This document shows positions 3,899 to 55,408 of a DNA stretch of 64,000 nucleotides, one piece after another; position 1 is the first letter of the stretch; every line of letters begins with the position of its first letter. Origin of the DNA: Bacteroidales bacterium (lineage in GTDB: Bacteria > Bacteroidota > Bacteroidia > Bacteroidales > Marinilabiliaceae); contig JAKSLD010000019.1 in NCBI GenBank assembly GCA_024401395.1, forward strand, positions 1-64,000, read 5' to 3'. The notes under the pieces were generated by a model, which saw nothing but the letters and a program-made list of their open reading frames with translations, was not told where the DNA came from and searched no databases. The position numbers and the translations under genes were made by a program.

Positions 3899-4495
3899 AT
3901 GTTCCTTTTGTATATAATATTCCTATTGTTTTTCTTCCTGATGGTGAGGTTTGTCATTCGTCAGGTGGTTAAATTGTCAGGTCGATTCAAATCGGCTGTG
4001 GTGTGGTCGTCTTGTATTATGATGGTCATTGTGTTTCAGACGGGTAATCTTATCTTCTGGCATTTGTATTGTATGTACGACAGGGTGAGTGAGCCTGTCA
4101 TGGTGCGTTGCGAACTGAAAGAGGTGAAGAAGAATATTTTCAGGATTGGTAATGATGGGATGATTAAATCTAAGGACAGCAAGTATTATGTGAAGGTGAA
4201 ACCTGTGGAGACTGTGCCTATCGTGTGGAGGTTTGAGTCGCTGCCTAAGTCGGAGAGGATGTTGCTGAAAATTATGGACTATTCGTGTTTTGGCTTGTTG
4301 ATGTCAGATAAGGAGGAGAGTAATACAAAGGAGCATACGAAATATGTGGGCTATTATGGCGATGATTGGTTGATTCAGGTATCGCCTTCTGTATATGAGA
4401 GCTTTGTCGGAGCGGAGGGGAATATGTGTGTGGATGTGGAGGCTCGGTGTAATGACAAGAGCAGCGCTCTTGTGTTCAAACTCTTTTCTATATGA
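3899..4495 (+). CDS. Two-helix membrane protein, unknown function
   Basis: The first 65 residues hold two hydrophobic segments (about 1-20 and 34-58), followed by a soluble domain of about 130 residues rich in beta-type sequence. I do not recognise the family. The gene converges on the dihydrouridine synthase gene with a 56-bp gap and stands alone. Its start follows a T-rich leader without a Shine-Dalgarno sequence, normal for this phylum. A role at the inner membrane is all that can be inferred. Confidence 0.6.
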   Translation: MFLLYIIFLLFFFLMVRFVIRQVVKLSGRFKSAVVWSSCIMMVIVFQTGNLIFWHLYCMYDRVSEPVMVRCELKEVKKNIFRIGNDGMIKSKDSKYYVKVKPVETVPIVWRFESLPKSERMLLKIMDYSCFGLLMSDKEESNTKEHTKYVGYYGDDWLIQVSPSVYESFVGAEGNMCVDVEARCNDKSSALVFKLFSI

Positions 4496-14423: not shown

Positions 14424-14445
14424 TGCCAGCTATTCGGATTTGTAG

Positions 14446-14528
14446 ACTCGGGCTATACTCGGGGAAGACTCGGAGAAGACTCAGGCTGTATTCAGGGAAG
14501 TACCTTGTTCATCGCAGTTTTTTTATTA
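14446..14528 (+). repeat. 11-bp-period degenerate array with GTTCATCGCAG tail (locus B)
   Basis: Five 11-bp units in perfect register: ACTCGGGCTAT, ACTCGGGGAAG, ACTCGGAGAAG, ACTCAGGCTGT, ATTCAGGGAAG (14446-14500). They are followed by TACCTTGTTCATCGCAG and seven Ts. The array lies between a terminator and the next plus-strand gene, whose ATG is 93 bp after the tail. Confidence 0.75.
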
Positions 14529-18739: not shown

Positions 18740-19150
18740 ATGAGAGTCGGTCTACTCCTTTTCTATGTCCTTGCTGCTATAGGAATGCTTAGCGGTTGCT
18801 CGCAGTTTTTTAATAAAACGAGCGATACAAGTGCAGTTGAAGAGACAGGAAAAGGACTAGCATTAGACAAGACAATACTAGACTTCGGTACGATAGAGAT
18901 GGGAGAGATGCTGTCGCGTCGTATCAAGTTGAAGAACGAATCGGGCAGGGGGGTAGTCATACGAGATGTGAAAGCGAGTTGTGACTGCATTCAGCCCAAT
19001 ATCAGTTCCTCAGAAGTAGAAGCAGGGAAGACGGTGACCGTAGAAGTATTGCTTGACAGCCGAGGGGTAATAGGAACACAATACCACAAGGTAACAATTG
19101 ATACAGAGATCGGGACATACGAATTCGCTGTAACAGCAGAGATAAGATAA
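18740..19150 (+). CDS. DUF1573 lipoprotein
   Basis: The start at 18740 gives a lipoprotein signal (hydrophobic stretch, LSGC with Cys 20). The rest is a single DUF1573 beta-sandwich: LDFGTIEMGEMLSRRIKLKNESG, the VKASCDCIQPN motif and TVTVEVLLDSRGVIG. Such Ig-like domains are common in Bacteroidetes envelope proteins; role unknown. An upstream start at 18692 would overlap nusB and hide the signal peptide. It sits between nusB and yajC in the order usual for this group. Confidence 0.85.
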   Translation: MRVGLLLFYVLAAIGMLSGCSQFFNKTSDTSAVEETGKGLALDKTILDFGTIEMGEMLSRRIKLKNESGRGVVIRDVKASCDCIQPNISSSEVEAGKTVTVEVLLDSRGVIGTQYHKVTIDTEIGTYEFAVTAEIR

Positions 19151-28691: not shown

Positions 28692-28775
28692 CTACAATTG
28701 TTGTCTTTGTCAGTAATACGGCATTCCATATTGTGTTGTAATCAGCGACAAGACCTATGCTGCTCTTAGAGAAGT

Positions 28776-28802
28776 CCCTTGTTCATCGCAGTTTTTTTAT
28801 TT
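28776..28802 (+). repeat. GTTCATCGCAG tail element (locus C)
   Basis: TCCCTTGTTCATCGCAG followed by seven Ts and ATTTG closely matches the tail of locus B. Only one clear 11-bp unit (about TCTTAGAGAAG) precedes it. It lies on the plus strand between two minus-strand genes, so it is not tied to a downstream gene in its own direction. Confidence 0.55.
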
Positions 28803-30978: not shown

Positions 30979-31042
30979 TCTGGTATAAGGGAAGGTAGTG
31001 TCTGGTATAAGGGAGAATAGTCGTTGCTCGCAGTTTTTTTAT
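30979..31042 (+). repeat. 11/22-bp-period array with GCTCGCAG tail (locus D)
   Basis: TCTGGTATAAG alternates with GGAAGGTAGTG and GGAGAATAGTC at 30979, 30990, 31001 and 31012, each 11 bp. It ends in GTTGCTCGCAG and seven Ts. It points toward the thioesterase gene, whose ATG is 78 bp further on. The remainder of 30842-31120 holds AT-rich leader sequence and no gene. Confidence 0.65.
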
Positions 31043-31120
31043 TTTGGCACATGATTGAGATTAGAGCTTAAAGAGAATGGAATGATATAATAGTGACTGG
31101 TAAATGTAAATATAATAATT

Positions 31121-31528
31121 ATGATTGAACATAAAACACAGATAAGAGTCAGGTATGCCGATACCGATATGATGGGAGTGGTATACCATGCAAACTATGC
31201 CATATATTTTGAGGTGGCACGTACCGAGATGTTTCGTGCGATAGAGATGCCATACGCGGAGCTAGAGAAAAACGGCATAAGGCTACCTGTAGTTGATTTG
31301 CACTGTAAATATCACAGGCCAGCCTTGTATGATGATTTGCTGACTGTGACAGCCACCATGAAAGAGATGCCTGGGGTAAGAATACGATTTGAGTACAAAG
31401 TAGAGAATCAGAAAGGCGAGTTGCTGTGTGAAGGCGATACGGTACTGGTTTTCACAGATATCAACAGCGGCAGACCAGTCAGAATGCCATCATACGTAGG
31501 AGAAGTCATTCAAAAGTATTTTGAATAG
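31121..31528 (+). CDS. Acyl-CoA thioesterase, YbgC/FadM type
   Basis: Hotdog-fold thioesterase of 135 residues. The 4HBT signature is clear: RVRYADTDMMGVVYHANYAIYFEVARTEMFR (residues about 7-38, with the catalytic Asp in YADTDMMGV and the His of YHANY). Such enzymes release acyl groups from CoA or ACP in lipid metabolism. Followed by its own promoter-separated neighbour, a LysE-type gene. Confidence 0.88.
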   Translation: MIEHKTQIRVRYADTDMMGVVYHANYAIYFEVARTEMFRAIEMPYAELEKNGIRLPVVDLHCKYHRPALYDDLLTVTATMKEMPGVRIRFEYKVENQKGELLCEGDTVLVFTDINSGRPVRMPSYVGEVIQKYFE

Positions 31529-35484: not shown

Positions 35485-35504
35485 AAAAGAGGAGACGCGG
35501 AGAG

Positions 35505-35548
35505 TTAAGGCTGTATTAAGGCTGTATTAAGAGAGCGTTAAGGGAGCG
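35505..35548 (+). repeat. 11-bp-period array, four units (locus E)
   Basis: TTAAGGCTGTA, TTAAGGCTGTA, TTAAGAGAGCG, TTAAGGGAGCG at 35505, 35516, 35527 and 35538: exactly 11 bp each. It follows the tgt stop codon by 20 bp. The tail here is TCGGTCAAGAAAATAATAAAAAG, related to the others mostly by its A-run. Confidence 0.75.
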
Positions 35549-35568
35549 TCGGTCAAGAAAATAATAAA

Positions 35569-38411: not shown

Positions 38412-40256
38412 TTACGAGTTCATAGAAACGAGGAACTCTTCGTTGCTTCTCGTATTAGAGAGGCGAGTGATGAGGAATTCCATAGCTTCTGTAGGAGTCA
38501 TATCCGTCAAGCCGTTGCTACGGAGAACGCGCATACGGTTGAGTGTATTAGTATCCTGGAGGAGATCGTCGCGGCGAGTAGAAGACAAAGTGACATCTAC
38601 TGCTGGGAAGATACGGCGGTTAGCGAGCTTACGGTCGAGCTGAAGCTCCATATTACCAGTACCCTTAAACTCCTCGAAGATCACGTCATCCATCTTAGAG
38701 CCGGTCTCGGTGAGGGCTGTAGCGATGATAGTGAGCGAACCACCATTCTCCACGTTACGAGCTGCGCCGAAGAAACGCTTAGGTTTCTGGAGAGCGTTGG
38801 CATCGACACCACCAGAGAGTACCTTACCGGATGCAGGAGATACGGTATTGTAAGCTCGAGCCAAGCGGGTAATAGAGTCGAGGAGGATAACCACATCGTG
38901 ACCACATTCTACGAGGCGTTTAGCCTTTTCGAGTACGATATTGGCAACCTTTACGTGGCGCTCAGCCGGTTCATCGAAAGTAGATGCGATAACCTCTGCA
39001 TTTACAGAGCGTTGCATATCTGTTACCTCCTCAGGGCGTTCGTCGATAAGGAGGATAATCATATACACCTCTGGGTGATTGTCGGCTATAACGTTAGCGA
39101 TATCCTTAAGGAGGACAGTCTTACCAGTCTTAGGCTGAGCCACGATAAGACCGCGCTGACCCTTACCGATAGGGGCGAAGAGGTCGACAATACGAGTTGA
39201 GATATTAGCGTGACGGCCGTGCGAGAGGTCGAATTTCTCGTTAGCGAAAATAGGAGTTAGGTGTTCGAACTGCATACGGTCGCGTATTTCAGCTGGAGCC
39301 TTACCATTTACGTCTACGACATTGCACATAGGGAAATACTTCTCACCCTCCTTAGGAGGACGGATAGTAGCTGTCACGGTATCACCCACGCGGAGACCGC
39401 TCTGGCGGATCTGTTGTGGAGATACGTATATATCATCAGGTGAATTGAGATAATTGTAATCAGAAGAACGGAGGAATCCGAAGCCATCAGGCATAAGTTC
39501 CAAGACACCAGTTGCTGTGATGAGATCGTCAAAATCATACATCATATAAGGTTCACGCTCCTGAATATCCTGAGGGCGTTGCCAGTAGTCTACGCGCTGA
39601 CCAGGGAGAGCAGGCTGACGCTGTTGCTGTTGCTGACGCTGCTGGTTAGGATTCTGCTGTTGCTGTTGTTGCTGAGGAGCCGGCATCTGTTGAGGAGCCT
39701 GCTGCTGTTGCTGTGGAGCCTGCTGAGCCTGTTGCTGAGGCTGTGGAGGAAGCTGTTGCTGCTGGTTGCGTTTCTGATACTGCTGATTCTTGCGGTATTG
39801 ATTGTTGCGAGGTGCACCAGACTGAGGCATATCGAAAGGCGATGGCTTGTAGACTGGTTGCTGTGGAGCAGGCTGTTCCAGAGTTTCGGCTATAGGCTGA
39901 GTCTCCTCTGCAGATGGCACAGGTTCATTTGCACGCTCATTTTCTACCTGAGCCTGAGCCTCCTCTGCGTTAGCGCCGAAGATGTTAGTTATTGCATCCT
40001 GAATATCCTTAGGAGTAGCGGTAGGTTGTGGCTCCTCATTTTGAGTAGGCGCTACAGCCTTAGGCTTACGTCCCCTTTTAGGGCGGACCTCTTCTACAGG
40101 TTGCTCTTCATTTTCTGTAGATAAACCTAGTTTGGATAATATCTTTTCGACGAGCTCGTGTTTTCTGTACTGGTCGGCTCTGTTGATATTAATCTCTTTA
40201 GCCAATACGCGAAGTTCGAGGATGCGCATAGCTGAAAGACTTTCTGCTGTATACAT
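38412..40256 (-). CDS. rho: Transcription termination factor Rho with Q-rich disordered insertion
   Basis: Hexameric RNA helicase that ends transcription. Rho N-domain helices (about 1-42), then a low-complexity region from about 45 to 235 with a glutamine/proline-rich stretch at about 150-215, then the RNA-binding cold-shock domain ([25 protein letters not shown]) and the ATPase core with Walker A near [11 protein letters not shown], Walker [16 protein letters not shown], the Q-loop [23 protein letters not shown] and R-loop [11 protein letters not shown]. Bacteroides Rho also has a disordered insertion, reported to drive phase separation. At 614 residues it is far longer than E. coli Rho (419). 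Confidence 0.96.
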
Positions 40257-40426: not shown

Positions 40427-40495
40427 GGTTAGGGTGTAGTGTGGGTCTAGCGTGAGTGTAGCATGTGTTTAGCATGTGTGTAGGGGTTCATCGCA
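40427..40495 (+). repeat. 11-bp-period array with GTTCATCGCA tail (locus F)
   Basis: GGTTAGGGTGT, AGTGTGGGTCT, AGCGTGAGTGT, AGCATGTGTTT, AGCATGTGTGT at 40427, 40438, 40449, 40460 and 40471 (11 bp each), then AGGGGTTCATCGCA running into an A-run rather than a T-run. Confidence 0.75.
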
Positions 40496-40531
40496 AAAAA
40501 ATAAAAAAGATGCACCTTTTTGGGGTGCATC
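40495..40531 (-). terminator. Rho-independent terminator of the TlpA-like gene
   Basis: GATGCACC pairs with GGTGCATC (8 bp) around a T-rich loop; on the minus strand a long T-run (complement of 40495-40508) follows. Confidence 0.8.
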
Positions 40532-41788: not shown

Positions 41789-43234
41789 ATGAAACACCCT
41801 TCGAGTATAATTTTTGCGCTACTATTATTCCTGTCGCTTAATTCGTTTTTTGCGAGCAACGGCTATGCTCAGACTAAGCAGCGAGTAATCATTCTTACAG
41901 ATATAGAGAATGAGCCAGACGACTGTCAGTCGCTTGTACGTCTTCTGCTTTATAGCAATGACATTGATATTAAAGCCATAATAGCGACAACATCTACGCA
42001 TATGCGAGATAAGGTGCATCCAGAGACTATACACCGAGTGATAAAGGCATACGCGAGTGTTCATGATAAACTAACCCAGCATGATAAAGGGTACCCATCA
42101 CCAAAGAGTCTGCACGATTGCGTTTTCAGCGGTCAGCCTGGCTATGGAATGGATGCAGTAGGAGAGGGTAAGGATTCCAATGGCTCAGAGAAGATAGCAG
42201 AAGAGTTGATGAGAGAAGATAACTCTCCACTTTGGATTTGTGCATGGGGAGGAGTAAACACGCTTGCTCAGACATTGGTATCTATTCGAAAGAATTATCC
42301 TGTTTCGGACCAGACAAGTATGCTTGCCAAGCTCAGAGTATACACTATTTCGGATCAGGATGATGCTGGACAGTGGATTCGTCGTGAATTCCCCCATATG
42401 TTTTATATCGTTAGCCCTGGTGGTTATGGTAATGCCACATGGATTGGTATGAACAATGCAGAAGGAGAACATCCCGAGTTGGTGTCGAATCAGTGGCTGG
42501 CTGAGAATATTCAGCAGGGACATGGTCTGCTAGGTGCATGCTATCCTGATGTTGCGTATGGTATGGAGGGCGATACTCCATCATTCTTGAACCTTATTCC
42601 CAATGGCCTGAATTCTCCAGAGAACCCTAACTGGGGTGGCTGGGGAGGTCGCTATGAGTTGTATACGCCTGATGTAAAGAAGTGCGATTATGATGGTTTT
42701 ACAGGAGGGGTAAAGATAGGTGACGAAACACGACCTATTTGGACCAATGCCTCTGATACATATACTCCTTTCGTTGCATCAGCCTACGGACGTGCAGTAA
42801 AGAAAGGTGATAAGACGTATACAGGCAATCAGGCTACCATTTGGCGTTGGCGAGAGGAGATACAGAACGATTTTGCTGCTCGTATGGATTGGTGTGTTAC
42901 GTCATTCAAGCAAGCCAACCATCCGCCATTCGCTATGTTGGACACACAAGAAAAGATAACCGTCAAGTCGGGTGAGTGGTTCTATTTCAATGCCGACAGT
43001 TCGTTTGATCCTGATGGCGACAGTATTTCATTCCTTTGGTTCCCATATCCTGAAGCTACAGGGTTCAAGGGCGAGTTGCCTGCACCACCTGCAGAGAATT
43101 GTCATGATTATAAGGCACAAGCACCTATAGTGAGTCAGCCAACAGATATTCATTATATATTGAAGGTTACGGATAAGGGTACGCCTAGACTGAGCCGATA
43201 CAAGAGAATAATTGTGACTGTAGAGCCGAAATAG
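41789..43234 (+). CDS. Secreted DUF1593 protein (nucleoside-hydrolase-like)
   Basis: Signal peptide (cleavage near YAQ, residue 27-28) and a DUF1593 domain: VIILTDIENEPDDCQSLVRLLLYS (residues about 33-56, the acidic DxExExDD metal-type cluster like nucleoside hydrolases), SPLWICAWGGVNTLAQTL and YTISDQDDAGQWIRREFP. The C-terminal part (about 395-480) is an Ig-like domain with FNADSSFDPDGDSISF. Members are often annotated as cellulose-binding or glycoside-related, but activity is unproven. It is followed 30 bp later by a two-domain hydrolase lipoprotein, likely cotranscribed and perhaps acting on plant material. Confidence 0.82.
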   Translation: MKHPSSIIFALLLFLSLNSFFASNGYAQTKQRVIILTDIENEPDDCQSLVRLLLYSNDIDIKAIIATTSTHMRDKVHPETIHRVIKAYASVHDKLTQHDKGYPSPKSLHDCVFSGQPGYGMDAVGEGKDSNGSEKIAEELMREDNSPLWICAWGGVNTLAQTLVSIRKNYPVSDQTSMLAKLRVYTISDQDDAGQWIRREFPHMFYIVSPGGYGNATWIGMNNAEGEHPELVSNQWLAENIQQGHGLLGACYPDVAYGMEGDTPSFLNLIPNGLNSPENPNWGGWGGRYELYTPDVKKCDYDGFTGGVKIGDETRPIWTNASDTYTPFVASAYGRAVKKGDKTYTGNQATIWRWREEIQNDFAARMDWCVTSFKQANHPPFAMLDTQEKITVKSGEWFYFNADSSFDPDGDSISFLWFPYPEATGFKGELPAPPAENCHDYKAQAPIVSQPTDIHYILKVTDKGTPRLSRYKRIIVTVEPK

Positions 43235-54555: not shown

Positions 54556-54877
54556 ATTTCTCAGTATTTGTAATTTCAATACGTTGTGATATTACCTAGT
54601 AATATTCTTGTCATGTTACGCAGCGTCTGTGCGTTAGGTTATAGGGAGCGTGTTTTATTTTAGTATTTTAACATTGGGGATAGTTTATATGGATTCGGCG
54701 ATTTTTGCACTTGTGGATCTTTATCACAAAGAAGAGGTACGGCTCTTTCATATAACTCTACAATCTAACGTGTAGATTCCTACAATAATACAACATCAAA
54801 CATATCCATTCAACAATTCTGGAATGTTTGCGACCATACTTTCCCCAGTAATGCCAAAGCCTATCCCCCTACAAACA

Positions 54878-54921
54878 CATACGCACATCATACGATCATC
54901 ATACGCACGTCATACGCACAA
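54878..54921. repeat. 11-bp-period array, four units (locus H)
   Basis: CATACGCACAT, CATACGATCAT, CATACGCACGT, CATACGCACAA at 54878, 54889, 54900 and 54911. On the minus strand the units read TGTGCGTATG, like locus F (AGCATGTGTGT). No GTTCATCGCAG tail is seen. Confidence 0.75.
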
Positions 54922-55408
54922 GCATAATTTTCCGTGCCTTCGCTGCTATCTATATATAAGAGTCGGCATTATGCAAAACGAAACAATCAACAGTCAAGGG
55001 TGGGTGGCAATGCCCGGAATACCTGGGTGCCGTTGAAACAGAATATGCAGAGGCGGATATACGAAGCATTCCCGTATAATGAAACTTTTTACTTCGCGTT
55101 TTAAATGAAATTGCCGTAAAGAAGAGGGGTAAAACCGTAACCATTTATTGAAATAGTCCATAAAATCAACTAATTTTGTGAGACTATTGCCTCTTTGGGG
55201 GCTTTATTAACAGGTGTTGAAAGGCACTTTTTGTTCTGAGAGAGTTGTAACTACCTATGGGTTAGATGATTATGGGACCTATGGGGAGTTGGAGTGTTGT
55301 TTTTTGCTGGTTGCTTGCATACTGATTGATACAGATTTATATATACAGATTATTTTGAATGAATTTTCAACAAGCACGCAAACGGATAAATGCGATAATA
55401 ATCTTCCG

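Follow-up and report, generated by a model that had tools for sequence, protein, structure and literature searches.

A composite motif, which consists of a variable number (n) of 11-bp words followed by the core GTT(CA|GC)TCGCA and a tract of A or T, is dispersed through four genomes of one clade of gut bacteria: that from which the 64-kb stretch analysed here (the window; contig C11 of a 3.3 Mb assembly in 47 contigs, genome G000) was taken, and those of its sister species G011, G012 and G013 (together, the carriers). Its composition, its 11-bp register, its copy number, its limitation to one clade, its presence on both strands of coding sequence, its emergence within genes by substitution without indels and its word dialects are direct observations. 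As to its role, we favour a DNA self-recognition signal similar to the uptake sequences of Pasteurellaceae (USS) and Neisseriaceae (DUS), which would be spread by molecular drive while slippage lengthened the intergenic copies; on our analysis the probability of this reading is roughly 40%.

An earlier note on the window had reported six arrays with an exact 11-bp period, together with a near-bare copy, and all of these are present where it had placed them. On the plus strand, the motif at 14441–14528 consists of six 11-bp words, the core GTTCATCGCAG (14507–14517) and the tract TTTTTTTATTA, with 18/22 matches at lag 11; a short copy at 28748–28802 has three words, the core GTTCATCGCAG and the tract TTTTTTTATTT; the motif at 30979–31044 has four words, the core GTTGCTCGCAG (31023–31033) and again TTTTTTTATTT; and the motif at 40431–40507, upstream of rho (38412–40256, minus strand), has five 11-mers, the core GTTCATCGCAA (40486–40496) and an A-type tract, AAAAATAAAAA. 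On the minus strand, at 2392–2457, four words (AATAGTGTAAG, GCAAGTATAAG, GCTGCATTAAG and GGAAGTACCTT) are joined to the core GTTCATCGTAA and the tract TTTTTTTATTC; the tail of this copy and 33 bp around it are identical in G011 and G012, and the words differ. The shared tail described in the earlier note is a genuine family feature, with the qualification that it takes the variant form GTTGCTCGCAG at 30979. Family membership had to be redrawn at two sites: the array at 35503–35557 (plus strand) is made of family words and has no core (its G011 orthologue keeps the same register with one more unit and other words), and the array at 54878–54921 belongs to a second repeat family (54740–55050), in which a leader of ~100 bp is followed by an 11-bp array of the CATACGCACGT type. 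There are at least 13 copies of this second repeat in G011 and G012 (L229–L241), with copy numbers differing by exactly 11-bp steps. At one locus, L070, its leader and CATACGCACGT repeat abut a tail-type array head to head.

The note had also held that all of the sites are intergenic, which is not the case. A DUF1573 lipoprotein gene (ORF from 18740; ...LSGCSQFFNK) contains a further plus-strand copy within its signal-peptide sequence, at 18751–18816 (four words followed by the core GTTGCTCGCAG and the tract TTTTTTAATAA), and another, at 41839–41904 on the minus strand (four words, core GTTGCTCGCAA, A-rich tract), is antisense within the gene at 41789–43234, which encodes an Sde182 nucleoside-hydrolase-like protein. 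Nor do the sites point consistently towards the next gene, as the note had held for at least three of them: with crude gene calls, the orientations of the genes flanking T-type copies were 17 ++, 12 --, 9 -+ and 4 +-. A promoter or terminator role was rejected for lack of a consistent orientation.

Counted in blocks of 11 from the core, the motif has a simple grammar: degenerate words (e.g. GCTACACTCGG, GCTAGTATAAG, GGAAGTACCTT and AGAGCACCCTT) precede a core block, which is GTTCATCGCA(A/G) or GTTGCTCGCA(A/G), and the core is followed by a T block with an A near position 8; in a less common version an A tract takes the place of the T block. The words approximate the consensus GCTAGACYCAG, with positions 3–4 fixed as a T-A or T-G step, and neighbouring words differ by 401 substitutions over 115 pairs. 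The pyrimidine-purine step at positions 3–4 recurs every 11 bp, with frequencies of 0.90, 0.63, 0.63 and 0.46 in blocks -2 to -5, and adjacent positions are near zero. Where motifs are stacked, the distances between cores are 44, 66, 77 or 88 bp i.e. multiples of 11, with few exceptions. At one orthologous site, that of the DUF1573 lipoprotein, A and T tracts are exchanged (in G011 and G012 the equivalent position of the orthologue is occupied by an A-tract version), as would be expected if the tract is read for its shape.

The exact 11-bp period was borne out: in the window, in sampled loci of the same genome and upstream of tails, no lag other than 11 and its multiples 22 and 33 was strong. 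Sequence identity upstream of 54 tails was 0.41 at lag 11, 0.39 at lag 22 and 0.34 at lag 33, with no other lag above 0.28, and downstream of the same tails there was no identity peak at 11-bp lags. In the sampled loci, 46 windows had lag 11, against a median of 2. A leave-one-out word profile placed 158/188 word hits in register 0 with the core, and in blocks 2 to 6 only 9 hits fell off register vs 115 in register. A genome-wide search for the tail found 72 copies of GTTCATCGCA in G000 vs 2 for the control, the reversed core sequence, and the core also ranks near the top of the over-represented 10-mers of G011. With the T run included, the tail was found 39 times in G000, 6, 16 and 6 times in the three sister species and 0 times in 11 other members of the genus. 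Tails are thus abundant, the arrays linked to them have a period of 11 only, and homologous sites in the carriers are periodic; none of the outcomes that the earlier note had named as counting against its proposal was seen.

The distribution of the motif across genomes, which are mostly metagenome assemblies, was determined with a 44-column sequence model used as a profile; the counts per genome are lower bounds. Each of the four carriers has at least 138 profile matches, and none of the 11 remaining genus members and none of 56 further genomes from the family gave a convincing match. Carrier stretches totalling 181 kb, mostly not chosen for the tail, contain ~22 motifs, vs 1 weak hit in 1.2 Mb from non-carriers; extrapolated from this small sample, the density is roughly 120 per Mb or ~400 copies per genome. 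In these stretches, DNA outside long ORFs amounts to 9% and holds ~86% of the motifs. The carriers also cluster by protein identity, their type III pantothenate kinase (coaX) being 70–77% identical to the query vs 43% for the next genome, G006. Database records with the same tail were mostly Bacteroidales/Bacteroidia metagenome assemblies, several of them from horse faeces. Tail matches outside Bacteroidales lack the words and look like chance. A viral origin was considered and dropped, as core patterns in viral contigs gave 3 stretches, which lacked array words, and 0 stretches.

The copies inside genes carry much of the argument. Gene calling in our scripts was crude and placed some intergenic sites inside ORFs, and claims about coding copies were therefore restricted to genes that are conserved in relatives, named by Pfam or have long unambiguous frames. 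The pattern TTGCTCGCARAAAAA, i.e. TTGCTCGCA with a run of A, has 28 matches in the four carriers, many of which lie in genes, vs 0 in eleven non-carriers and 0 for the reversed control. The coding copies use all three frames (giving CSQKN, LLAKK and VARKK), both sense and antisense. Ten genes, several of them counted in more than one species, were picked by core and tract alone, ignoring the upstream sequence, and the 33 bp before each core were scored against the word profile. At register 0 the block means were +1.9, +2.4 and +1.9, and at other phases mostly -4 to -10; nearly all of these sites lack a tandem array. Codon bias cannot produce words in this register, because 11 is not a multiple of 3. 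Upstream of coding cores with a tract the median score was -3.1; it fell to -19.9 where cores of the same genome lacked a tract and to -23.5 for non-carrier cores (p ~4e-6 and 2e-8, respectively; at gene level 6e-5 and 2e-6).

Alignments of orthologues reveal how such copies arise. In a glycosyltransferase gene, 14 orthologues align without gaps, and the motif, which takes the form GTTGCTCGCAAAAAA (or CTTGCTCGCAAAAAA), is found in the four carriers only, with unrelated codons at this position in the others; the gap-free alignment means that it arose by substitution, not by insertion or slippage. Alanine dehydrogenase (Ald) has the motif in G000 and G013, part of it in G011 and none in G012, with no change in length. 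In gluQ, the G006 gene is of equal length, which suggests an origin by substitution here too. The coding motif thus arose in place, by substitution or replacement. The earlier proposal that a conserved step and tail with drifting words exceed what slippage alone would give is upheld, since the same register is present in gap-free coding sequence. One further coding copy, at position 1500 of L347, places a core and A tract inside the domain of a putative reverse-transcriptase-like gene (378 aa; assigned by sequence resemblance).

At orthologous sites the words change while the step and the core persist. Word endings differ by species, TAAG being found in G011, TCGG in G012 and both in G000, a comparison to be read with caution as the sets of sites were partly chosen by core; the core dialects also differ between species. 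Copy number is variable, e.g. by two units between L070 and L041. In coaX (L069, L300–L303) every one of the four carriers has an in-frame array written in a dialect of its own; the array makes the protein longer, and the hypervariable peptide of ~20 residues that it encodes is wholly different between proteins that are 70–77% identical overall. That the arrays in general encode peptides was rejected, as many words contain in-frame stops, and coaX is the exception. The 30979 motif lies, in both G000 and G011, between a TATATTTG sequence and a start codon, that of a thioesterase gene at 31121 in G000; we take TATATTTG to be a putative promoter by the Bacteroidetes -7 consensus. In G012 and G013 ~193 bp are missing at this locus, which is free of the motif. 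Only one inverted repeat was apparent, at 30979, and it was regarded as a one-off. In L107, two near-identical copies at 4040 and 6635 are 2595 bp apart with matching flanks, which suggests tandem duplication of a 2.6-kb segment.

The motif most likely acts as double-stranded DNA, since it occurs in sense and antisense, with either an A or a T tract, and both in and between genes. Judged by sequence, the core, the A/T tract and the helically spaced words with their T-A/T-G steps resemble a multi-turn contact surface for a protein. Under the favoured self-recognition reading, a protein would read the motif directly as DNA, with one helical turn per word, and DNA bearing the motif would be preferentially taken up or used in recombination, so that the motif would accumulate through molecular drive, as USS and DUS do. 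Between genes, the word part would grow and shrink by whole 11-bp steps through slippage or unequal exchange, and homogenisation of the words within each genome would yield the visible arrays. The presence of hundreds of copies in one clade, the coding copies made by point changes and the dialects are how uptake sequences under molecular drive behave. Several observations count against this reading. The estimated density of ~120 per Mb appears to fall far short of that of DUS in Neisseriaceae, with thousands of copies per genome, the placement of ~86% of motifs outside long ORFs is a stronger intergenic bias than expected, and some copies resemble added DNA (the ~193 bp at 30979 and the coaX array that lengthens the protein). 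We also know of no long tandem arrays among uptake sequences. A broader proposal, which we advance tentatively and at less than even odds, is that a protein system reading exact 11-bp steps from the core and A/T tract labels the chromosomes of one clade, with spread by drive and with species dialects, and that this would be a new class of genomic self-label in Bacteroidales.

The earlier note had suggested that a protein filament or a sensor of bending or supercoiling could read the arrays, which is one rival among several. In its general form, a nucleoid protein, gyrase-like wrapping enzyme or filament would bind the core and follow the T-A/T-G steps, and the copies would be selected for chromosome structure. 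This is a serious possibility that we nevertheless consider unlikely. It would explain the pyrimidine-purine step at positions 3–4 with neighbours near zero, the interchangeable A and T tracts, the enrichment in intergenic DNA and the near absence of off-register words from the first six blocks. However, the motif is wholly absent from sister species that share the same basic chromosome biology, an exact step of 11.0 bp over many units would drift against the 10.5 bp of B-DNA, and a generic architectural protein has no need of word dialects in each species. We infer that an architectural site accounts for the phasing as well as an uptake signal does, and for the clade limit and the dialects less well.

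A selfish or neutral dispersed minisatellite, similar to BrickBuilt (see below), would be an array that has a conserved end and was dispersed through transposition or gene conversion; 11 bp would be merely the length of the founder unit, maintained because slippage operates by whole units. It is likewise a doubtful account of the family as a whole, even though much of the intergenic evidence fits it: the strong intergenic bias, the tandem identity between adjacent words, the changes in copy number by whole units at orthologous sites, the element-free orthologous site at the 30979 locus and the dialects, which fit concerted evolution. Against it stand the words that precede cores, in register and with no insertion, in conserved genes, where an origin by substitution was found for one gene (the glycosyltransferase) and is suggested for gluQ. 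A MITE with inverted repeats was rejected, as local alignment of upstream flanks with reverse-complemented downstream flanks at the tails gave no excess over mismatched flanks and hence no terminal inverted repeats. No transposase-bearing parent was noticed near the elements that were read, in the course of a reading that was not a systematic search. A neutral minisatellite therefore explains the intergenic arrays and not the coding copies.

Two further explanations are very improbable. An RNA-level signal ending in a U tract (a Rho-utilisation site, attenuator, terminator or small-RNA element) would suit the T run after the core in most copies, the periodic pyrimidines in the words and the one copy that adjoins rho, but copies occur in sense and antisense within genes with no dominant orientation to their neighbours, A tracts stand in for T tracts, Rfam gave no match in the window and no hairpin was seen by eye before the T run. 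Equally remote is an origin in decayed or captured DNA for lipoprotein signal peptides: the core reads G-C-S-Q in one frame and the motif lies exactly at the lipobox in the DUF1573 lipoproteins of G000, G011 and G012, yet other genes use the frames that give LLAKK and VARKK, many arrays have stop codons just upstream in the G-C-S-Q frame, and G013 has the lipoprotein without the motif.

Among known systems the nearest are the uptake sequences. USS spans about 32 nt, including a 9-nt core and AT-rich segments (PMC12616744), and the dialects of DUS follow clades (PMC3630211). As in USS and DUS, the core described here is over-represented, is found in genes and between them, on both strands and in several frames, has dialects that track clades and arises by substitution without indels (glycosyltransferase and Ald alignments). 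In contrast to both, the motif has 11-bp words that run for several turns from the opposite side of its core and grow into arrays, and its copies are strongly intergenic; the density estimated here also appears to be lower than that of DUS. A limited full-text search found no uptake sequence described in Bacteroidales. BrickBuilt of Porphyromonas gingivalis is a minisatellite with a 23-nt unit, 19 copies, a MITE leader and tail and IS5-like terminal inverted repeats (PMC4596501); it shares with our motif its occurrence in Bacteroidales as dispersed intergenic tandem repeats with a conserved flank and variable copy number. Our motif differs in its 11-nt unit, in its hundreds of copies and in its lack of inverted repeats, and some of its copies arose in coding sequence by substitution, whereas BrickBuilt is always intergenic. 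Heptamer arrays are found in cyanobacteria (STRR), Beggiatoaceae, some Bacteroidetes and Xanthomonas, including TAACTGA (PMC4679880) and GGGAATC repeats (PMC4692102). These too form many dispersed intergenic arrays with a unit length that is fixed within one genome; the unit is 7 rather than 11, and neither a conserved core and tract nor in-register words in gap-free coding sequence are known to us from them. Finally, a weak genome-wide periodicity of A/T dinucleotides at ~11 bp is general in bacteria (PMC4132750, PMC7537859) and is likewise near the helical repeat, but it is statistical, with no core or words, whereas the motif consists of discrete copies in exact 11-bp register. Within a limited search of the literature on 11-bp intergenic repeats and Bacteroidetes uptake sequences, nothing was found that combines 11-bp words with a core and tract.

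Were the motif to serve in uptake or recombination, no earlier signal of this kind would be known from Bacteroidetes, as far as that search reaches; it would also be unusually long, would be the first whose repeated contacts follow the helical phase, and would make genetic self-recognition testable in a dominant gut phylum. If it is instead an architectural site, it would offer hundreds of naturally varied copies in which to study how a protein tracks successive turns of DNA. Either way, it sets 11-bp periodicity that comes from tandem duplication apart from periodicity written into unique coding sequence, two things that are usually confused.

Other repeats came to light in the window and in related genomes. 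A 30-bp tandem repeat of 2.7 copies, AATTGTGGACTCACTGCGTCCACTTTCCCA, lies at 1212–1293 of the window. Arrays of other words with an 11-bp step in G003, G004, G006, G008, G009 and G010 were in modest excess relative to neighbouring periods (~15 vs 5, p ~2e-4) and were set aside as support for the motif; those of G010 are partly one MITE family. There (L255, L290, L292, L295, L297 and L299), a dispersed repeat of ~300 bp, with ends that resemble TTTGACCRTGACCATT inverted repeats, holds three fixed 11-mers, TAACGGTACCT, TACCGTACCCT and TACCATACCTT. Other members of the genus have intergenic arrays with a 7-bp or 9-bp step, which means that 11 bp is no general rule for such arrays. The 7-bp arrays are found in the motif-free sister species G001 (L159–L162), G005 (L247–L248) and G014 (L270), with variable words (AACTCGT, AATTGAA and GTAGAGA), and resemble cyanobacterial STRR; the 9-bp arrays, GAGTCGTCG and TCCGACGAC, are found in the sister species G003 (L163–L164). 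The favoured array period varies among species of one genus.
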